Positions 15,904 to 43,306 of a stretch of DNA of 64,000 nt are shown here, one piece after another. Made by a program: the position numbers and the translations under genes. The stretch comes from Desulfolithobacter dissulfuricans (GTDB lineage: Bacteria; Desulfobacterota; Desulfobulbia; Desulfobulbales; Desulfobulbaceae). The stretch spans positions 1,930,001 to 1,994,000 of the forward strand of contig NZ_AP024233.1 in assembly GCF_025998535.1 (NCBI RefSeq). Reading direction: 5' to 3'. Each line of letters begins with the position of its first letter. Within the stretch, counting starts at the first letter, position 1. The notes beneath the pieces were generated by a model. The model saw only the letters and a list, made by a program, of their open reading frames with translations, was not told where the DNA came from and made no database searches.

Positions 15904-16386
15904 CTATTTCTGCCACGGCAGAACGACAATCGTTGAAATGGAATTTTTCGGCGAACCGTCAATCAGTTTGTCGCTATAGGTCAGGTAGACCAGGGTATTG
16001 CGTTTTTTATCATAAAAACGGACCACCTGCAGTTTTTTAAACAGCAGCGAGGTGGATTTCCTGAACACCCGTTTCCCATCGGCCCTGCCACTGGCCACCT
16101 CCGGCGGCAGGATGATAGGCCCTGTCTGCCTGCAGGCCAGCGAAGCATCGGATCTGTCTTCTGCCACCCCGAGGCTGCCCCGGATACCGCCGGTCTTGGC
16201 CCGGCTGACATAACAGGTTGCGCCGGGTATATCGGGATCGTCAAAGGCTTCGATGACGATCTTGTCATTGGCCCCCACCAGCTTGAAAGTGGTGGAGACC
16301 TCACCGATCTTCTCTGCCGCCGCCGGCCAGGTTGCCAGCAACACCATAACGATCGCTACCACCAGGCCCAGGCAGCTTTTTCTCAT
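15904..16386 (-). CDS. creA: CreA-family periplasmic protein
   Basis: 160 aa with a clear signal peptide (about residues 1-24, ending PAAA). The CreA pattern follows: EKIGEVSTTFKLVGANDKIVIEAFDDP, a Cys in GATCYVSRAK, a second in SLACRQTGP, and RFYDKKRNTLVYLTYSDKL. Two Cys suggest a disulfide in the periplasm. The function of CreA is not established. The start overlaps the leuA stop (ATGA), so it is read from the leuA transcript, an unexpected partner for leucine biosynthesis. Confidence 0.93.
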   Translation of the reverse strand: MRKSCLGLVVAIVMVLLATWPAAAEKIGEVSTTFKLVGANDKIVIEAFDDPDIPGATCYVSRAKTGGIRGSLGVAEDRSDASLACRQTGPIILPPEVASGRADGKRVFRKSTSLLFKKLQVVRFYDKKRNTLVYLTYSDKLIDGSPKNSISTIVVLPWQK

Positions 16387-18083
16387 GTTGTTTCCTCCTG
16401 GTGCTTTCTGCAGGCCCGGTTCAGGGCACTGAGAAGCGCCTTGATCGAGGCCACGATGATGTCCGTGTCCACCCCGGCACCCCAGAACGGCCGCCCCTCC
16501 CCGTCGGTTACCATAATATAACTTACCGCCTTGGCCGACGACCCCCGGGTCAGGGCATGTTCATGGTAGGCCTGGAGAGTAAACTGGAGGCCAAGCCCTT
16601 CCCGGAGCGCCTGGCAGAAGGCGTCCAGCGGGCCGTTGCCAGCGGCCCGCAGCGTCTTTTCCTCCCCATGGACCTCTATAACCGCCTCCACCTCGGCGGA
16701 CGAACGGGCCTCGTCATGGTCGATATGTCGTTTGAGGACGTTGAAACTCCGGAGCTTGTAGCACGAGTCGGCCTGCAGGTATTCGCGGTCGAAGGTGTGG
16801 TAGATGACCTCGCCCGGCAGCTCGCCGCCGGCCTCGTCGCTGATCTTCTGAATTATGGCCCCGAACTCCGGGTGCATGTCCTTGGGCAGCTTGAAGCCGA
16901 ATTCCTTGTCCATGACATAGGCCACCCCGCCCTTGCCGGACTGGCTGTTGATCCGGATGATCGACTCATAGGTCCGGCCCACATCCTGCGGATCGATGGG
17001 CAGGTACGGAACCGCCCATATACCGGAGTTGTCCTTCTCCACCGCGGCCATACCCTTGTTGATCGCATCCTGGTGAGACCCCGAAAAAGCGGTATAGACC
17101 AGCTCACCGGCATAGGGATGCCGGGGATGGACTGGCAGCTTGGTACAGCGCTGGTAGACATCTATAACCCGGTTGATATCGGAAAAATCAAGCTTGGGAT
17201 CCACTCCCTGGGTGAACATATTGAGCGCCACGGTCATGATGTCCACGTTGCCGGTACGCTCACCGTTACCAAAAAGGGTGCCCTCCACCCGGTCGCCACC
17301 GGCCATCAGGGCCAACTCGGTGGCTGCTACCGCGGTACCCCGGTCATTATGGGCATGGAGACTGATGAGTGCACAGTCGCGGTTTTTCAGGTGGCGGATA
17401 AACCACTCGATCTGATCGGCATAGACATTGGGGGTGGACATCTCCACCGTGGCCGGCAGATTGATTATCACCGGCCGCTGTGGAGTCGGCTCCCACACCT
17501 CCATGACCGCCTCGCAGATCTCCAGGGCGAAGTCCAGCTCCGTACCTGTGAAACTCTCAGGAGAATATTCGTAACGGATGTCGGTATCGGTCCTGGCCGC
17601 CTCCTCACGGATGACCTCGGCTCCCCGGACCGCCAGGTCGATGATCTCTTTCTTTTCCATGCCAAAGACCACCTGACGCTGCAGAGTCGAGGTGGAGTTA
17701 TACAAATGGACCACCGCCTGTCTGGCCCCTTTCAGCGCCTCGAAGGTCTTGCGGATCAATGGTTCCCGGGACTGGGTCAGCGTCTGGATGAGCACATCGT
17801 CCGGGACGAGATCCCGCTCAATGAGCAACCGGGTAAAATCATGCTCAATCCGTGAGGCTGCCGGAAAGCCGACCTCAATCTCCTTGAAGCCGATATCCAC
17901 CAGGAGCTGAAACATCTCCAGTTTCTCTTCCAGGTTCATGGGCTGGACGAGCGCCTGGTTGCCGTCCCGCAGGTCCACGCTGCACCAGATCGGCGCCTGG
18001 GTGATCGTTTTATCCGGCCACGTCCGATCGGGCAGATGGACCGTGGGATAGGGGCGATATTTTTTCAACTTATCAGTAAACAT
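16383..18083 (-). CDS. leuA: 2-isopropylmalate synthase
   Basis: 566 aa, the long (type 2) form. Condenses acetyl-CoA with 2-oxoisovalerate, the first committed step of leucine synthesis. The HMGL-like TIM barrel begins with WCSVDLRDGNQAL (residues 33-45, catalytic Arg-Asp), has the metal-binding SLHAHNDRG near residue 242 and GNGERTGN near residue 275. The C-terminal LeuA dimer domain for leucine feedback is at about 430-560. The ATG at 18083 follows GAGG at 8 bases. Upstream lie a palindromic repeat element, a terminator, and a leader peptide rich in Leu codons, so it appears to be controlled by attenuation. creA follows with a 4-base overlap. Confidence 0.97.
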   Translation of the reverse strand: MFTDKLKKYRPYPTVHLPDRTWPDKTITQAPIWCSVDLRDGNQALVQPMNLEEKLEMFQLLVDIGFKEIEVGFPAASRIEHDFTRLLIERDLVPDDVLIQTLTQSREPLIRKTFEALKGARQAVVHLYNSTSTLQRQVVFGMEKKEIIDLAVRGAEVIREEAARTDTDIRYEYSPESFTGTELDFALEICEAVMEVWEPTPQRPVIINLPATVEMSTPNVYADQIEWFIRHLKNRDCALISLHAHNDRGTAVAATELALMAGGDRVEGTLFGNGERTGNVDIMTVALNMFTQGVDPKLDFSDINRVIDVYQRCTKLPVHPRHPYAGELVYTAFSGSHQDAINKGMAAVEKDNSGIWAVPYLPIDPQDVGRTYESIIRINSQSGKGGVAYVMDKEFGFKLPKDMHPEFGAIIQKISDEAGGELPGEVIYHTFDREYLQADSCYKLRSFNVLKRHIDHDEARSSAEVEAVIEVHGEEKTLRAAGNGPLDAFCQALREGLGLQFTLQAYHEHALTRGSSAKAVSYIMVTDGEGRPFWGAGVDTDIIVASIKALLSALNRACRKHQEETT

Positions 18084-18111
18084 TGTCTTTCCCTCTTCAT
18101 GGAAAAAATCT

Positions 18112-18279
18112 GATTACCATCAATCTTCAGCATTGAAACCGGTGTCGACCTCACTTGTTTCACGGGACGCCATAAACCCGTCCCTGGGAGCTTGACTGTG
18201 GCCATCCAGGCCACAGACACCCGTGAAACAAGTAAGGCCGACACCTTCATCCATCGGTGGCTGAATGTCAGTGGTAATC
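18112..18279. repeat. 168-bp multi-hairpin dispersed element, copy 1
   Basis: Bounded by GATTACCA at one end and TGGTAATC at the other. Inside, long arms (GGTGTCGACCTCACTTGT and beyond, against CCGTGAAACAAGTAAGG and CGACACC) enclose two smaller hairpins, GGGAC/GTCCC and TGTGGCC/GGCCACA. It lies in the leuA leader between the attenuator terminator and the leuA start. Two further copies are at 42884 and 47431. It could be a MITE-like or REP-like element; no transposase for it is in the window. Confidence 0.88.
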
Positions 18280-18281
18280 AC

Positions 18282-18318
18282 AAAAAAAAAGCCACGATTC
18301 ACTCAAGTGAACCGTGGC
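18282..18318 (-). terminator. attenuator terminator of leuA
   Basis: On the minus strand GCCACGGTTCACT pairs with AGTGAATCGTGGC (13 bp, one G-U) around a TG loop, followed by nine T. It lies between the leader peptide and leuA. Its 5' arm can alternatively pair with the upstream leader segment at 18368-18377. Confidence 0.92.
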
Positions 18319-18345
18319 TGCGGGAACCGTTCTACTCCTGACACC

Positions 18346-18429
18346 TCAGGACAAAGCTTCTCCTTCTGCCACAGTTCGTCTGTGCAGTCCCGGTAGAGGC
18401 AGGATTAGGAGAAGGATTGCTTGATTCAT
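18346..18429 (-). CDS. leuL: leucine leader peptide of leuA
   Basis: A 27-codon frame from ATG at 18429 reads MNQAILLLILPLPGLHRR and ends GEALS, with a TGA at 18346-18348. Six Leu codons fall within residues 6-15 (CTT CTC CTA, CTG, CTA, CTG). The last of these is where the 1:2 hairpin begins, so a ribosome stalled in the run would block arm 1 and allow the antiterminator. The stop lies beyond arm 2, so completed translation would favour the terminator. The ribosome-binding site is poor (only AAAG-like purines upstream), the weakest part of the case. Confidence 0.82.
   Translation of the reverse strand: MNQAILLLILPLPGLHRRTVAEGEALS
18366..18387 (-). promoter_or_regulatory. leu attenuator 1:2 hairpin and antiterminator segment
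   Basis: On the minus-strand RNA, CUGCACAG (18387-18380) pairs with CUGUGGCAG (18374-18366). The second arm, extended as GAACUGUGGC (18377-18368), is complementary over 10 bp (one U-G) to the terminator 5' arm GCCACGGUUC (18318-18309). The two pairings exclude each other, as in the 1:2 / 2:3 / 3:4 arrangement of amino-acid operon attenuators. Confidence 0.82.
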
Positions 18430-18470
18430 ATACTTTTATTCTTTGCTGTTTTTGATTTGATGATGCCTTA

Positions 18471-18498
18471 ATACTAAAACTGCTGGCCGGTTTGTCAA
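18471..18498 (-). promoter_or_regulatory. sigma70-type promoter of the leuA leader
   Basis: On the minus strand TTGACA (18498-18493) and TAGTAT (18476-18471) are separated by 16 bases. The expected transcript start, near 18464, gives a 35-base untranslated stretch before the leader peptide. The rest of the 337-base gap up to 18766 shows no gene. Confidence 0.65.
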
Positions 18499-18766
18499 GC
18501 TCAATCTGCCCGATTCCCCAACTTCCGGCAACAGGTGGCAGCCAGCCTGAAAAAGATTGACTTTACCCCATCCTGCTTTTAAAAATCATCTGCAGCAGGC
18601 TGTGTATGATCCGGTTTTTTCCGGTACTTCCCCGTGGTCTGTTTTCTGTCCTGCTACATCAATTTTCATCTCAATCCTGCCACAGTTGTCCATGCTCCGG
18701 AAAGGTCGAGACGACCGCAGGATTCAGCCTCCGATAACTTTCTTGAAAACACAGGATTAGACTGCT

Positions 18767-34963: not shown

Positions 34964-34995
34964 TTACAGTCCTCCATAACCAGAGTAAAAACAAA

Positions 34996-37103
34996 ATCGA
35001 GTAGGGTGAGGCAAGGTAATTAAGCTTGCCTCATCCCTCTCACAGAACCGTACGTACGGGCCTCGTATACGGCTCCTGTTTATTTTCCTTCATACTGAAA
35101 CAGAAATTCCGGTCTGTACAGATGCGAGGTCAAAGAGCCCCATTTCCCCATGCAGGCAGCTGTTGGGAAGGGCATAATGGCTCAGTGGACTTGCTGCATT
35201 GGCCCAGGAGTTCATCTTGATACTTTTGAACTCTCCTCTATAGCCCAGCTGTCTCAGTCTGCGGTGTAGCCTGCGCGGCTTTTTCCACAGCTTCAACTGA
35301 ACAGCACGCAGCCGTCTTCTGATCCACCTCATCAGCCGAGAAAACTCACCCTTGCAGTTCGCTATTCGAAAGTAGTTGGCAAAACCCCTCAGCAACCGGT
35401 TGAGATCGGCTATCACCTTCTCAAGGTTCACCGGGGAGTTACGCCGGGTCATCGCCTTGACCTTCGCCTTGAAGGCCCTCACCTTGCCTCGCTGTATTCG
35501 GGTCATCACGGAGTGGATACAAACTCCAAGAAATTTAATCCCTTTGAGGCTGTGGCTTATATGGGTCTTTTCCTGGTTGACGGTCAACAGCAGTTCTTCT
35601 TCAAGATAACGACTGGCCTGGTTCAGTGCATTTTCGGCTGCGCTCTTTGACTGGCACAGGATCAGGATGTCGTCCGCATAGCGGACGATGCGGTGGCCAC
35701 GATTCTTCATAAACTGATCGAAGGAATCAAGGTATACGTTGGCAATCAACGGGCTGATAACTCCGCCCTGCGGACTGCCGACCTCGCTGGCCTGCCAACC
35801 ATCTCCTGTCAGAACACCGCTTTTCAAAAACTTCTCCAGCAGACCAAGAATACTTCCATCGCTGACCCGGCGACGAAACGAGGCAAGGATCAGGTCATGG
35901 TTCAACGTGTCGAAACATTTCGACAGATCCATGTCCACTACCCATTTCCGCTCGTACGTCCGGATGAACATCGTGGCCTTGCTGATCGCCTGGTGACAAC
36001 TCCGACCAGGACGGTAGCCGTAGCTCGACGGATGGAAATCGCGGTCAAATATTGGTTGAAGTATATCCAGCAGGGCCTGCTGTACCACACGGTCACGGAC
36101 TGCAGGTATGCCGAGTAGCCGTTTCCCGCCGTTCAGCTTCGGGATCTCCACCCGTCGCACGGCCAGCGGTTGGTAGCTCTTGTCCTGCAGTTCCGTCAGG
36201 AGATGATCGATATTGGTCGCAAATGAGCCGGCAAAATCATCGATGGACTGGCCGTCTATACCGGCAGCTCCTTTCGAGAATTTCACCTTGTAGAATGCCT
36301 TGACCAGGTTCTCCCGGCTCAGCATTCGATCATATAGGCTGTACCAGACTTCAACCATGCTCCTGTCCTGCGTTTCCCTTCCTCTATTTCCACCCGGAGA
36401 CTTCGGTTCTTCAATGGGCGCGACCGCTTTCTATCCTCATGGGCAATATACGATCAACACTCCCATCTACTCCGGTGAACGGCCAAAATCGGCAGAGGAC
36501 CTGTCACGGCATACCGCCGATAGCGTGCCCCGTCCCGTCGGACGGCTTGTGTTCAGTCTGCCAGGTGTCCATAGATTCCGGAAAACCTTCAAATAAACTT
36601 CATCCCTTCGCAACAGATATGGCTTTTGGCTCATAACTGCCCCCAACGAACCAGGCCGTTGGGTCATCCCGGTTTTATCCTCCACACTGTTACCAGGCTT
36701 CACAGGCCGGAATTTCATCACTACTACGGAATCATCTGCCACCTCACACCGCTTCGATCCGCCTTGGATTTCTCCTTGTGCTTCTCTTTTTCCGCTTAAT
36801 GCGGAAACAGTGCAAGGCTTCCCCGGTTAAGGCGAACTCCCTGTGAGCGACCACATCCTCAATCACGTATCAGGACTGACCAGGTATCGGGCTTCGCGCT
36901 ATTTAGGACGCTTACCCTCCTGATACGCCGAATCAGGTTCGCTTGCGCTATGTGCCGCTCACCTCCTATCGCTTCCTTCAGACCCTGCCGTTACCAGCAA
37001 CGCCCTCGAAGTCTGCGCTTATCTGCGATTCGGATTGTCTTCCCCCTGGTCAGGGTGACGCCTGCTTAACACAGGCTGGGTTTGCCCGCCATGCCGGGCA
37101 AAC
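34996..37103 (-). mobile_element. group II intron copy 1 (downstream-most of three)
   Basis: On the minus strand it begins GTTTGCCCGGCATGG (a GUGYG-like 5' end) and ends CACCCTACTCGAT. Domain V (GAGCCGTATACGAGGC ... GTACGGTTCTGTGAG) is at about 35037-35075, and domain VI forms the hairpin ATGAGGCAAG/CTTGCCTCA next to the 3' end. It encodes one reverse transcriptase-maturase without endonuclease domain, as in bacterial class C introns. It has an 18-base segment near 37010 missing in the other copies and the most divergent maturase. Boundaries are inferred from where the copies stop matching their flanks. Confidence 0.85.
35090..36358 (-). CDS. ltrA: group II intron reverse transcriptase/maturase, copy 1
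   Basis: 422 aa. Reverse transcriptase palm and fingers with QPLAVRRVEIPK, SYGYRPGRSCHQAI, catalytic WVVDMDLSKCFDTLNHDLI near residue 139 and RYADDILIL with YADD at 227-230. A maturase (X) domain follows (about 300-400, LRGFANYFRIANCKGEFSRL). No HNH endonuclease motif at the end, the usual state for introns that insert after terminators. It helps the intron splice and copies it into new sites. It differs from the other two copies at about nine residues (for example MVEVWY for MVDVWY). Confidence 0.95.
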   Translation of the reverse strand: MVEVWYSLYDRMLSRENLVKAFYKVKFSKGAAGIDGQSIDDFAGSFATNIDHLLTELQDKSYQPLAVRRVEIPKLNGGKRLLGIPAVRDRVVQQALLDILQPIFDRDFHPSSYGYRPGRSCHQAISKATMFIRTYERKWVVDMDLSKCFDTLNHDLILASFRRRVSDGSILGLLEKFLKSGVLTGDGWQASEVGSPQGGVISPLIANVYLDSFDQFMKNRGHRIVRYADDILILCQSKSAAENALNQASRYLEEELLLTVNQEKTHISHSLKGIKFLGVCIHSVMTRIQRGKVRAFKAKVKAMTRRNSPVNLEKVIADLNRLLRGFANYFRIANCKGEFSRLMRWIRRRLRAVQLKLWKKPRRLHRRLRQLGYRGEFKSIKMNSWANAASPLSHYALPNSCLHGEMGLFDLASVQTGISVSV

Positions 37104-39193
37104 ATCGAGTAGGGTGAGGCAAGGTAATTAAGCTTGCCTCATCCCTCTCACAGAACCGTACGTACGGGCCTCGTATACGGCTCCTGTTTATTTTCCTTCA
37201 TACTGAAACAGAAATTCCGGTCTGTACAGATGCGAGGTCAAAGAGCCCCATTTCCCCATGCAGGCAGCTGTTGGGAAGGGCATAATGGCTCAGTGGACTT
37301 GCTGCATTGGCCCAGGAGTTCATCTTGATACTTTTGAACTCTCCTCTATAGCCCAGCTGTCTCAGTCTGCGGTGTAGCCTGCGCGGCTTTTTCCACAGCT
37401 TCAACTGAACAGCACGCAGCCGCCTTCTGATCCACCCCATCAGCCGAGAAAACTCACCCTTGCAGTTCGCTATCCGAAAGTAGTTGGCAAAACCCCTCAG
37501 CAACCGGTTGAGGTCGGCTATCACCTTCTCAAGATTCACCGGGGAGTTACGCCGGGTCATCGCCTTGACCTTCGCCTTGAAGGCCCTCACCTTGCCTCGC
37601 TGTATTCGGGTCATCACGGAGTGGATACAAACTCCAAGAAATTTAATCCCTTTGAGGCTGTGGCTTATATGGGTCTTTTCCTGGTTGACGGTCAACAGCA
37701 GTTCTTCTTCAAGATAACGACTGGCCTGGTTCAGTGCATTTTCGGCTGCGCTCTTTGACTGGCACAGGATCAGGATGTCGTCCGCATAGCGGACGATGCG
37801 GTGGCCACGATTCTTCATAAACTGATCGAAGGAATCAAGGTATACGTTGGCAATCAACGGGCTGATAACTCCGCCCTGCGGACTGCCGACCTCGCTGGCC
37901 TGCCAACCATCTCCTGTCAGAACACCGCTTTTCAAAAACTTCTCCAGCAGACCAAGAATACTTCCATCGCTGACCCGGCGACGGAACGAGGCAAGGATCA
38001 GGTCATGGTTCAACGTGTCGAAGCATTTCGACAGATCCATGTCCACTACCCATTTCCGCTCGTACGTCCGGATGAACATCGTGGCTTTGCTGATTGCCTG
38101 GTGACAACTCCGACCAGGACGGTAGCCGTAGCTCGACGGATGGAAATCGCGGTCAAATATTGGTTGAAGTATATCCAGCAGGGCCTGCTGTACCACACGG
38201 TCACGGACTGCAGGTATGCCGAGTAGCCGTTTCCCGCCGTTCGGCTTCGGGATCTCCACCCGTCGCACGGCCAGCGGCTGGTAGCTCTTGTCCTGCAGTT
38301 CCGTCAGGAGATGATCGATATTGGTCGCAAGTGATCCGGCAAAATCATCGATGGACTGGCCGTCTATACCGGCAGCTCCTTTCGAGGATTTCACCTTGTA
38401 GAATGCCTTGACCAGGTTCTCCCGGCTCAGCATTCGATCATATAGGCTGTACCAGACGTCAACCATGCTCCTGTCCTGCGTTTCCCTTCCTCTATTTCCA
38501 CGTGGAGACTTCGGTTCTTCAATGGGCGCGACCGCTTTCTATCCTCATGGGCAATATACGATCAACACTCCCATCTACTCCGATGAACGGCCAAAATCGG
38601 CAGAGGACCTGTCACGGCATACCGCCGATAGCGTGCCCCGTCCCGTCGGACGGCTTGTGTTCAGTCTGCCAGGTGTCCATAGATTCCGGAAAACCTTCAA
38701 ATAAACTTCATCCCTTCGCAACAGATATGGCTTTTGGCTCATAACTGCCCCCAACGAACCAGGCCGTTGGGTCATCCCGGTTTTATCCTCCACACTGTTA
38801 CCAGGCTTCACAGGCCGGAATTTCATCACTACTACGGAATCATCTGCCACCTCACACCGCTTCGATCCGCCTTGGATTTCTCCTTGTGCTTCTCTTTTTC
38901 CGCTTAATGCGGAAACAGTGCAAGGCTTCCCCGGTTAAGGCGAACTCCCTGTGAGCGACCACATCCTCAATCACGTATCAGGACTGACCAGGTATCGGGC
39001 TTCGCGCTATTTAGGACGCTTACCCTCCTGATACGCCGAATCAGGTTCGCTTGCGCTATGTGCCGCTCACTTCCTATCGCTTCCTTCAGACCCTGCCGTT
39101 ACCAGCAACGCCCTTACGATTCGGATTGTCTTCCCCTGGTCAGGGTGACGCCTGCTTAACACAGGCTGGGTTTGCCCGCCATGCCGGGCAAAC
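37104..39193 (-). mobile_element. group II intron copy 2 (middle)
   Basis: Nearly identical to the copies on both sides, with the same GTTTGCCCGG start and CTACTCGAT end. On the minus strand its 5' end directly follows the last base of copy 3 and its last base is directly followed by copy 1. Domain V is at about 37145-37183. The 5' region includes a strong GTTTGCCCG/CGGGCAAAC hairpin. Confidence 0.85.
37198..38466 (-). CDS. ltrA: group II intron reverse transcriptase/maturase, copy 2
   Basis: 422 aa, same architecture as copy 1 with intact YADD motif (227-230) and maturase domain. It differs from copy 3 at only two residues that I noticed (RLMGWIRR against RLMRWIRR, and KKPRRL against KKPCRL). 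No frameshift or stop, so it appears functional. The high identity suggests very recent duplication or ongoing gene conversion. Confidence 0.95.
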   Translation of the reverse strand: MVDVWYSLYDRMLSRENLVKAFYKVKSSKGAAGIDGQSIDDFAGSLATNIDHLLTELQDKSYQPLAVRRVEIPKPNGGKRLLGIPAVRDRVVQQALLDILQPIFDRDFHPSSYGYRPGRSCHQAISKATMFIRTYERKWVVDMDLSKCFDTLNHDLILASFRRRVSDGSILGLLEKFLKSGVLTGDGWQASEVGSPQGGVISPLIANVYLDSFDQFMKNRGHRIVRYADDILILCQSKSAAENALNQASRYLEEELLLTVNQEKTHISHSLKGIKFLGVCIHSVMTRIQRGKVRAFKAKVKAMTRRNSPVNLEKVIADLNRLLRGFANYFRIANCKGEFSRLMGWIRRRLRAVQLKLWKKPRRLHRRLRQLGYRGEFKSIKMNSWANAASPLSHYALPNSCLHGEMGLFDLASVQTGISVSV

Positions 39194-41285
39194 ATCGAGT
39201 AGGGTGAGGCAAGGTAATTAAGCTTGCCTCATCCCTCTCACAGAACCGTACGTACGGGCCTCGTATACGGCTCCTGTTTATTTTTCCTTCATACTGAAAC
39301 AGAAATTCCGGTCTGTACAGATGCGAGGTCAAAGAGCCCCATTTCCCCATGCAGGCAGCTGTTGGGAAGGGCATAATGGCTCAGTGGACTTGCTGCATTG
39401 GCCCAGGAGTTCATCTTGATACTTTTGAACTCTCCTCTATAGCCCAGCTGTCTCAGTCTGCGGTGTAGCCTGCACGGCTTTTTCCACAGCTTCAACTGAA
39501 CAGCACGCAGCCGTCTTCTGATCCACCTCATCAGCCGAGAAAACTCACCCTTGCAGTTCGCTATCCGAAAGTAGTTGGCAAAACCCCTCAGCAACCGGTT
39601 GAGGTCGGCTATCACCTTCTCAAGGTTCACCGGGGAGTTACGCCGGGTCATCGCCTTGACCTTTGCCTTGAAGGCCCTCACCTTGCCTCGCTGTATTCGG
39701 GTCATCACGGAGTGGATACAAACTCCAAGAAATTTAATCCCTTTGAGGCTGTGGCTTATATGGGTCTTTTCCTGGTTGACGGTCAACAGCAGTTCTTCTT
39801 CAAGATAACGACTGGCCTGGTTCAGTGCATTTTCGGCTGCGCTCTTTGACTGGCACAGGATCAGGATGTCGTCCGCATAGCGGACGATGCGGTGGCCACG
39901 ATTCTTCATAAACTGATCGAAGGAATCAAGGTATACGTTGGCAATCAACGGGCTGATAACTCCGCCCTGCGGACTGCCGACCTCGCTGGCCTGCCAACCA
40001 TCTCCTGTCAGAACACCGCTTTTCAAAAACTTCTCCAGCAGACCAAGAATACTTCCATCGCTGACCCGGCGACGGAACGAGGCAAGGATCAGGTCATGGT
40101 TCAACGTGTCGAAGCATTTCGACAGATCCATGTCCACTACCCATTTCCGCTCGTACGTCCGGATGAACATCGTGGCTTTGCTGATTGCCTGGTGACAACT
40201 CCGACCAGGACGGTAGCCGTAGCTCGACGGATGGAAATCGCGGTCAAATATTGGTTGAAGTATATCCAGCAGGGCCTGCTGTACCACACGGTCACGGACT
40301 GCAGGTATGCCGAGTAGCCGTTTCCCGCCGTTCGGCTTCGGGATCTCCACCCGTCGCACGGCCAGCGGCTGGTAGCTCTTGTCCTGCAGTTCCGTCAGGA
40401 GATGATCGATATTGGTCGCAAGTGATCCGGCAAAATCATCGATGGACTGGCCGTCTATACCGGCAGCTCCTTTCGAGGATTTCACCTTGTAGAATGCCTT
40501 GACCAGGTTCTCCCGGCTCAGCATTCGATCATATAGGCTGTACCAGACGTCAACCATGCTCCTGTCCTGCGTTTCCCTTCCTCTATTTCCACGTGGAGAC
40601 TTCGGTTCTTCAATGGGCGCGACCGCTTTCTATCCTCATGGGCAATATACGATCAACACTCCCATCTACTCCGATGAACGGCCAAAATCGGCAGAGGACC
40701 TGTCACGGCATACCGCCGATAGCGTGCCCCGTCCCGTCGGACGGCTTGTGTTCAGTCTGCCAGGTGTCCATAGATTCCGGAAAACCTTCAAATAAACTTC
40801 ATCCCTTCGCAACAGATATGGCTTTTGGCTCATAACTGCCCCCAACGAACCAGGCCGTTGGGTCATCCCGGTTTTATCCTCCACACTGTTACCAGGCTTC
40901 ACAGGCCGGAATTTCATCACTACTACGGAATCATCTGCCACCTCACACCGCTTCGATCCGCCTTGGATTTCTCCTTGTGCTTCTCTTTTTCCGCTTAATG
41001 CGGAAACAGTGCAAGGCTTCCCCGGTTAAGGCGAACTCCCTGTGAGCGACCACATCCTCAATCACGTATCAGGACTGACCAGGTATCGGGCTTCGCGCTA
41101 TTTAGGACGCTTACCCTCCTGATACGCCGAATCAGGTTCGCTTGCGCTATGTGCCGCTCACTTCCTATCGCTTCCTTCAGACCCTGCCGTTACCAGCAAC
41201 GCCCTTACGATTCGGATTGTCTTCCCCCTGGTCAGGGTGACGCCTGCTTAACACAGGCTGGGTTTGCCCGCCATGCCGGGCAAAC
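39194..41285 (-). mobile_element. group II intron copy 3 (upstream-most)
   Basis: Its 5' end, GTTTGCCCGG at 41285, lies one base beyond the T run of the TPR-methyltransferase terminator, the preferred landing site of bacterial class C introns. Its 3' end abuts copy 2. Domain V is at about 39235-39273. Removing all three units would join the terminator T run to TTTTGTTTTTACTC, consistent with an original uninterrupted T-rich tail. Confidence 0.85.
39289..40557 (-). CDS. ltrA: group II intron reverse transcriptase/maturase, copy 3
   Basis: 422 aa with the same reverse transcriptase and maturase domains and intact YADD motif (227-230). Distinguished by KKPCRLHRR in the C-terminal basic region. 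The gene is uninterrupted. Which copy is the parent cannot be decided from sequence alone, but copies 2 and 3 are closest to each other. Confidence 0.95.
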   Translation of the reverse strand: MVDVWYSLYDRMLSRENLVKAFYKVKSSKGAAGIDGQSIDDFAGSLATNIDHLLTELQDKSYQPLAVRRVEIPKPNGGKRLLGIPAVRDRVVQQALLDILQPIFDRDFHPSSYGYRPGRSCHQAISKATMFIRTYERKWVVDMDLSKCFDTLNHDLILASFRRRVSDGSILGLLEKFLKSGVLTGDGWQASEVGSPQGGVISPLIANVYLDSFDQFMKNRGHRIVRYADDILILCQSKSAAENALNQASRYLEEELLLTVNQEKTHISHSLKGIKFLGVCIHSVMTRIQRGKVRAFKAKVKAMTRRNSPVNLEKVIADLNRLLRGFANYFRIANCKGEFSRLMRWIRRRLRAVQLKLWKKPCRLHRRLRQLGYRGEFKSIKMNSWANAASPLSHYALPNSCLHGEMGLFDLASVQTGISVSV

Positions 41286-42722: not shown

Positions 42723-42883
42723 TGGGATATTGAAAACAGAGATACGTTCGGGTTCCGTGACATCCTGAAGAACAGCCAGGTGCCACAAAAGTCCTCATGA
42801 GCGATCGATCCTCTGCAGACAAAAAATACACCAGCAAAAGCGGGTGGACAAGGGGACAAAACAGGTATTGGAAAAACTTTTCT

Positions 42884-43051
42884 GATTACCATCAATCTTC
42901 AGCATTGAAACCGGTGTCGACCTCACCCGTTTCACGGGACGCCATAAACCCGTCCCTGGGGGCTTGACTGTGGCCATCCAGGCCACAGACACCCGTGAAA
43001 CAAGTGAGGCCGACACCTTCAGGCATCGGTGGCTGAATTTCAGTGGTAATC
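42884..43051. repeat. 168-bp multi-hairpin dispersed element, copy 2
   Basis: Same ends (GATTACCA, TGGTAATC) and internal hairpins as copy 1, in the same orientation. The long stem reads CACCCGTTTCACGGG against CCCGTGAAACAAGTG, with two mismatches. It occupies part of the 584-base gap between two divergent genes; the rest of that gap shows no gene. Confidence 0.88.
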
Positions 43052-43306
43052 ACAAAAACTTTTTTGCAGTTAAGGAAAGTGGTCCGTACGGACAATCAGG
43101 AATGGTCTTTTCAGTCTCAGAGTGACAACAGCCCGGCTCGAGTATATGATAACTCCAGCCAGGCACAGGCGCCCTGATCCAGAAGCGGCGGCCTCACGCT
43201 GTGTGGCGTGGAGCGGCACGAGAGTGAGACAAAAAAAATCTTCACGACCTCTATCCTGTCATTTGTATGGCTTATGTTTTTTCCCAGGCGAACTGACTTT
43301 TCCGAA

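Follow-up and report, generated by a model that had tools for sequence, protein, structure and literature searches.

Organization of the leuA leader

The gene leuA, encoding a 2-isopropylmalate synthase, lies on the minus strand of a 64-kb stretch of the Desulfolithobacter dissulfuricans genome, which is a single contig of 3.6 Mb. This whole stretch, 64,000 nucleotides (nt) long, is the window to which all coordinates refer, and the subject of the present study is the DNA that precedes leuA within it. A promoter, a short leucine-rich open reading frame (ORF), a set of competing RNA pairings and an intrinsic terminator, all on the minus strand and 5' of leuA, together make up a candidate leucine attenuator. 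In the direction of transcription, the features are:

18471 to 18498, minus strand: promoter, TTGACA at 18498-18493, a 16-nt spacer and TAGTAT at 18476-18471
18346 to 18429, minus strand: leader peptide ORF, ATG at 18429, stop TGA at 18348-18346, 27 codons, MNQAILLLILPLPGLHRRTVAEGEALS
18385 to 18414, minus strand: control Leu codons in residues 6-15, reading CTT, CTC, CTA, one other codon, CTG, one other, CTA, two others, CTG
18380 to 18387, minus strand: strand 1, CTGCACAG, pairing with 18374-18366; placed from folds, comparative support weak
18368 to 18377, minus strand: strand 2, GAACTGTGGC, the 5' arm of the antiterminator; placed from alignment and folds
18336 to 18351, minus strand: small hairpin around the stop codon of the leader, TCCTGA-GGTG-TCAGGA, inside the 2:3 loop
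18309 to 18318, minus strand: strand 3, GCCACGGTTC, placed from pairing in the alignment
18291 to 18300, minus strand: strand 4, GAATCGTGGC, placed from pairing in the alignment
18282 to 18319, minus strand: intrinsic terminator, a 13-bp stem at 18319-18290 and nine T at 18290-18282
18109 to 18281, minus strand: palindromic repeat of 173 bp, resembling a miniature inverted-repeat transposable element (MITE), separating the T tract from leuA; ends set by eye
16383 to 18083, minus strand: leuA, 2-isopropylmalate synthase, 566 amino acids, yeast/actinobacterial type

An earlier sequence-only reading had proposed a ribosome-mediated leucine attenuator at this site, and its inventory of parts was accurate. 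The promoter it described is present at 18498-18471, and the 13-bp terminator with nine T stands at 18319-18282. The 10-bp antiterminator that it postulated, GAACUGUGGC (18377-18368) with GCCACGGUUC (18318-18309), does form ten pairs, one of which is U-G. Its 27-codon leader with six Leu codons in residues 6-15 needs one addition, a seventh Leu (TTG) at residue 26, so that Leu occupies positions 6, 7, 8, 10, 12, 15 and 26. What that reading overlooked is that the span from the T tract to leuA is mostly a repeat dispersed in the genome.

The leader parts are not a chance occurrence. A scan of 18050-18700 found two promoter-like and two terminator-like sites, versus 0.4 and 0.7 in shuffled sequence, and the Leu-rich leader is unique in the window when both strands are searched for ATG-initiated ORFs of 15-45 amino acids that have six or more Leu in ten residues. 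The best ten-base match to strand 3 in the upstream leader is 10/10, which is reached by 0.1% of 2000 mononucleotide shuffles.

Conservation of the leader in related genomes

Some part of a 417-base query from the leader region was matched in 29 of 57 related genomes, and a leuA gene query in 54 of the 57. From 37 chosen loci we dropped two, L065 with no leuA start and L019 from the same genome as L035. The remaining 35 loci, 33 of the same family (f1) and two of a sister family (f12), each have a yeast-type leuA start with upstream DNA. The alignment comprises 34 leaders, L039 having been left out for a run of N at its terminator.

A Leu-rich leader ORF (4 to 11 Leu) lies 5' of the yeast-type leuA in all 35 loci and is followed by a terminator in 34 of them, the run of N occupying the remaining one. 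At least six Leu fall within ten residues in 24 of the 35 leaders, and four or five in the rest. Our leader picker favoured Leu-rich frames, and the fixed position and stop of the ORF therefore outweigh the 35/35 count. Of the 34 leaders, 32 have their stop 19 nt past strand 2 and two have it 16 nt past; a Leu codon sits 19 nt ahead of strand 2 in 30 of 34 (CTA in 19, CTC in 4, CTT in 4, CTG in 3). TTGACA followed 15-19 nt on by at least four of the six bases of TATAAT was found upstream of 26 of the 35.

Leu is kept through synonymous codons in the relatives. Of the 256 Leu codons in the leaders 57 are CTA, versus 23 of 1471 in the leuA genes; a sensor would be expected to show such a rare-codon bias. 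The sequence-only reading had staked itself on conservation of the Leu codons and of the 2:3 pairing in close relatives, and both are conserved. Strands 2 and 3 pair in 308 of 340 cells of the alignment (90.6%), compared with 26.8-43.9% in slid controls and a mean of 88.6% when the letters of the 3' strand are exchanged at random between sequences. The ten core pairs of the terminator are kept in 98.2% of 340 cells (slid controls, 29.0-43.5%; shuffled, 93.8%), and four of its pairs have changed on both sides. On average, the RNA that links strand 2 to strand 3 is more stably folded than its shuffles (mean z -1.3), and 24 of 34 leaders score below -1.

RNA folding and ribosome masking

In a modelled transcript that ends at strand 3 and carries no ribosome, the 1:2 hairpin forms with a probability of 0.83 and 2:3 with a probability of 0.095. 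The sequence-only reading had this hairpin start at the last Leu codon; its support in relatives is weak. Masking 18429-18385, as that reading had proposed, raises 2:3 from 0.095 to 0.997. For each of the first five Leu codons, a ribosome placed there brings 2:3 to 0.970-0.997; at the sixth (18387) it hides strand 2, and the value drops to 0.035.

Averaged over the 34 leaders, the probability of the seven core 2:3 pairs is 0.82-0.94 with the footprint 12-39 nt upstream of strand 2 and 0.00 with the footprint on strand 2. At the best Leu stall, 2:3 reaches at least 0.5 in 34 of 34 leaders, a figure that is a maximum over several codons and hence generous.

A probable ribosome-mediated leucine attenuator

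The locus combines clustered Leu codons in a short ORF, a terminator 5' of the gene and a conserved antiterminator that excludes this terminator. Geometry and the masked folds indicate, in addition, that a stalled ribosome would free strand 2 and that a passing one would cover it. We are confident, on comparative and modelled grounds, that the leader is a classical ribosome-mediated leucine attenuator of leuA, as the sequence-only reading had suggested and as conservation of the Leu codons and of 2:3 supports. The assignment is based on what was directly observed: the parts themselves and how well relatives keep them, the pairing that is conserved with them, and the bias towards a rare codon.

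We infer from the sequence where transcription starts, that the leader is translated, that ribosomes stall in it and that the switch responds to leucine. RNA polymerase would start near 18464 and make the leader. When charged Leu-tRNA is scarce, a ribosome would stall at the Leu run (18414-18394), covering strand 1 and leaving strand 2 free to pair with strand 3 before strand 4 is synthesized; the 2:3 pairing would block the terminator, and leuA would be transcribed. When leucine is plentiful, the ribosome would move on and either occupy strand 2 or permit 1:2, strand 3 would be left for strand 4, and transcription would end at 18282. The hairpin at 18351-18336, nested in the 2:3 loop, perhaps aids the antiterminator. 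It may, we suggest, keep the loop of the antiterminator short up to the moment when a ribosome gets to the stop codon.

Several observations weigh against this model. The ribosome-binding site of the leader is weak: the longest match to the Shine-Dalgarno (SD) consensus is 3 nt here, as the poor site noted in the sequence-only reading would have it, and SD matches average 2.7 over 34 leaders versus 4.2 at 35 leuA starts. Covariation in 2:3 is thin, with nine double-change cells of which eight fall in one outermost pair, and the observed number of double-change pairs is equalled or exceeded in 221 of 500 shuffles. Double changes are few because strand 3 is almost invariant. Conservation of 1:2 is slight, at 71.3% of cells versus 69.0% in shuffled and 42.6-58.5% in slid controls.

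The folds add further points on the same side. Without a ribosome, 2:3 has a probability of at least 0.5 in 17 of the 34 leaders, and footprints upstream of the Leu run leave it averaging 0.63-0.95. The sharp contrast over relatives is thus between a ribosome on strand 2 and none there, rather than between a stalled ribosome and an absent one. A ribosome at the stop codon, before strand 4 is made, still leaves 2:3 at 0.61. With strand 4 present, equilibrium favours the terminator under the mask of 18429-18385 (2:3 at 0.002) as well as without it, and the terminator wins in all modelled ribosome states but one. Since equilibrium favours the terminator once strand 4 is made, the choice must be kinetic, set by the order of synthesis, as it is in known attenuators.

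A palindromic repeat behind the terminator

What is new at this locus is the 173-bp palindromic repeat between the T tract and leuA. With three mismatches allowed at most, its left end is found at 60 places in the genome, not all of which need be whole copies; a reversed control is found at none. Eleven aligned copies share a common core flanked on both sides by T-rich or A/T-rich sequence, and these flanks look like target duplications, the mark of a transposed element. No autonomous parent emerged from four copies viewed with 2.5-3.5 kb of flanking DNA: no ORF lies between their ends, and no transposase was seen by eye. For one copy (L218) the right end was not found. A second copy in the window occupies 42869-43058.

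The repeat raises the question of whether the family's attenuator still works in this species. Its insertion beside the T tract may have broken or rewired the switch, leaving the long hairpin of the repeat, and not leucine, to govern leuA. The element does fold very stably (18062-18281 at -99.4 kcal/mol, z -8.7), it ends 25 nt ahead of the leuA start codon, and it sits between T tract and gene in this species, while a DNA search gave no match to it at the leuA loci of relatives. Even so, the leader, the terminator and the nine T are intact, as they are in relatives, and a terminator scan of the repeat returned a single 6-pair site with a poor tail. The repeat also lies beyond the point of termination and so should not affect the choice between 2:3 and 3:4. 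We consider a broken or rewired switch very unlikely. In the attenuator model the repeat should leave the switch unaffected while adding a very stable hairpin to the 5' end of leuA.

Other explanations

Another proposal is that the locus holds a constitutive partial terminator that lets a fixed fraction of transcripts through, the peptide remaining untranslated. The weak ribosome-binding sites of the leaders would agree with this, as would an equilibrium in which the terminator is preferred in all states modelled except one. A mere terminator has no need of a conserved frame, stop position, Leu positions or rare CTA codons, all of which are conserved, and we regard this proposal as extremely unlikely.

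That a T-box or other riboswitch senses leucine supply, with the Leu-rich ORF as a by-product, is almost certainly wrong, given that the ORF conserves Leu through synonymous codons and that the T-box covariance model (RF00230) found nothing in the genome itself or in any of 96 genomes of the order, in a search that was positive in 5 of 14 control genomes (two above the cut-off) and whose strict filters may lose weak matches. T-box identity was rejected on these searches. A known Rfam leader family was rejected as well: none reached its gathering score at the leader, and 18050-18550 searched at E ≤ 1 gave just three unrelated families, far under their cut-offs.

Relation to known systems

The D. 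dissulfuricans leader is a known kind of switch, well conserved, and extends that kind to a further taxon. Classical leucine attenuation is best known from enterobacteria, where attenuators such as E. coli leuL and trpL consist of a leader ORF with regulatory codons, mutually exclusive 1:2, 2:3 and 3:4 pairings and a terminator with a U run; the rare CUA is among the regulatory codons of E. coli leuL. Our leader shares with them the leader ORF and its regulatory codons, CUA included, the exclusive pairings, and a terminator with a U run ahead of a biosynthetic gene. Unlike them, it has strand 2 within the coding region with the stop 19 nt later, a stop-codon hairpin and a yeast-type leuA as the gene it drives. 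No Rfam leader model matches it.

Geobacter sulfurreducens and Pelobacter carbinolicus belong to the same phylum as D. dissulfuricans. The sequence-only reading had remarked that leuA is T-box controlled in some genomes of Desulfobacterota; this agrees with the T-box before leuA reported for these two species in PMC2494555, but in the present order a search whose strict filters may lose weak matches found no T-box in 96 genomes. Common to those species and ours is a regulatory RNA element ahead of the gene. The T-box, which was not found here, is a direct sensor of tRNA.

The actinobacterial LEU element also places a Leu-rich upstream ORF before leuA. As described in PMC1262725, the element has a conserved pseudoknot and a base stem reaching the Shine-Dalgarno box of leuA, and its authors deem classical attenuation unlikely. 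The Leu-rich ORF upstream of leuA is shared. A terminator with a U run and a matching antiterminator set our leader apart from that element as it is described there, which would be expected to have no classical terminator. A leader peptide rich in leucine codons is also indicated for Staphylococcus aureus, of a different phylum, by the title of PMC5794164. Passages of PMC545781 mention neither leuA nor T-boxes nor leader peptides. Among the titles listed from the openly licensed literature, none named a leucine attenuator of this group.

The attenuator model would extend classical leucine attenuation to a whole family that includes sulfate reducers and cable bacteria, within a phylum in which a T-box before leuA is reported for two species. 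The work yields a covariance model for a leader absent from Rfam, and the roughly 60 leaders in one family are a natural set in which to study the choice of stalling codon (CUA) and stop-codon hairpins. The general picture of attenuation is unchanged.

Distribution of the leader

Within the class, 196 of 257 genomes match the covariance model of the leader at E ≤ 0.01. In family f1, 63 of the 73 genomes listed match below 1e-6, four more weakly and six not at all, the downstream gene having been checked only in the 35 loci described above. Strong full-length matches occur in f1, probably Desulfobulbaceae, and in f12, which appears to hold Desulfocapsa and Desulfopila. Two genomes of family f5 have a full-length match before a yeast-type leuA, whose first 239-243 residues are 70% identical to LeuA of D. 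dissulfuricans; in f5, leuA was examined in two further genomes, and both carry the other type.

Of 297 genomes searched from the phylum as a whole, 72 have a match at E ≤ 0.01. Among the matches listed, those outside the order are weak (best 1.5e-7, in genome G371; next 6.2e-6) and mostly cover the terminator half. We read these as terminator look-alikes and rejected a spread of the leader across the phylum. The two out-of-order matches inspected (L107 of G371 and L109 of G467) have no Leu run. A pattern of leader tail plus terminator, run against 395 genomes of the phylum, had hits in 12, about as many as its reversed control, and by eye these looked like coding sequence.

Among the best 80 of at least 581 named loci with a yeast-type leuA, 20 match the model on the forward strand below 1e-6. 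Seventeen of them are labelled Desulfobulbaceae, Desulfobulbus, Desulfocapsa, Desulfopila, Candidatus Electronema, Candidatus Electrothrix or unspecified, and the other three comprise two from Nitrospirae/Nitrospirota and one from Spirochaetaceae. Of these three, the matches in a Nitrospirae and a Spirochaetaceae metagenome-assembled genome (MAG) precede leuA, and that in the Nitrospirota locus (L147) precedes a methyltransferase instead. The leader occurs as well in the cultured Desulfopila aestuarii DSM 18488 (L135) and in Desulfobulbus sp. Tol-SR (L139). In the Nitrospirae and Nitrospirota leaders, frame and terminator are kept but no Leu run is left; it looks as though a different signal had taken the place of the regulatory codons. 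For leaders outside the alignment, the ten-base 2:3 match beats shuffles in two from Spirochaetaceae (P 0.007 and 0.003) and does no better than shuffles in those of f5, Nitrospirae and L138 (P 0.37, 0.37 and 0.93). It is conceivable, if rather doubtful, that the leader and the yeast-type leuA are one old unit that moved together between bacteria, and that in D. dissulfuricans a mobile repeat landed at the T tract with the switch unbroken.

Leader-like elements were seen elsewhere as well. L147:348-498 and L108 (G071:C44:107326-107461, family f15) share an ...AVA(E/Q)GG tail, a GGCC(A/G)CGG terminator, Trp codons and the absence of a Leu run. Both, L147 being from a Nitrospirota MAG, stand ahead of an S-adenosylmethionine-dependent methyltransferase whose best NCBIfam match is BioC, below its cut-off. 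One genome of genus g9 has a second, diverged copy of leader and terminator (L104, G008:C48:7705-7845), with no ORF longer than 80 amino acids beginning within 250 nt downstream.

The leuA gene and neighbouring features

LeuA of D. dissulfuricans matches TIGR00970 (leuA_yeast) at 780.1 bits (cut-off 697.4) and NF002991 at 860.4 bits (cut-off 455). A 160-amino-acid ORF at 15904-16386 begins at the leuA stop codon with a 4-nt overlap and may be co-read with leuA.

Other families of the order carry the other leuA type, at 26-31% identity. In the 12 examined of 18 such loci, none had six Leu in ten residues (the best had five) and none matched the leader model at E ≤ 1, and a Leu-rich leader before this type was rejected. 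Several of these loci do have short frames in which four of eight residues are Leu, and in one (L122) a T run lies between the four-Leu frame and the gene. The ..LSGP..Y.. end common to three of the frames is taken as the end of an upstream gene.

Farther along the window, 34992-41285 holds a tandem array of three head-to-tail group II introns, each about 2.1 kb and 98-99% identical, with group II domains at 36832-37000, 38940-39108 and 41031-41199. Each intron has an ORF of 422 amino acids on the minus strand (35090-36358, 37198-38466 and 39289-40557), and that of the middle intron matches the group II reverse transcriptase/maturase family TIGR04416 at 403.8 bits.
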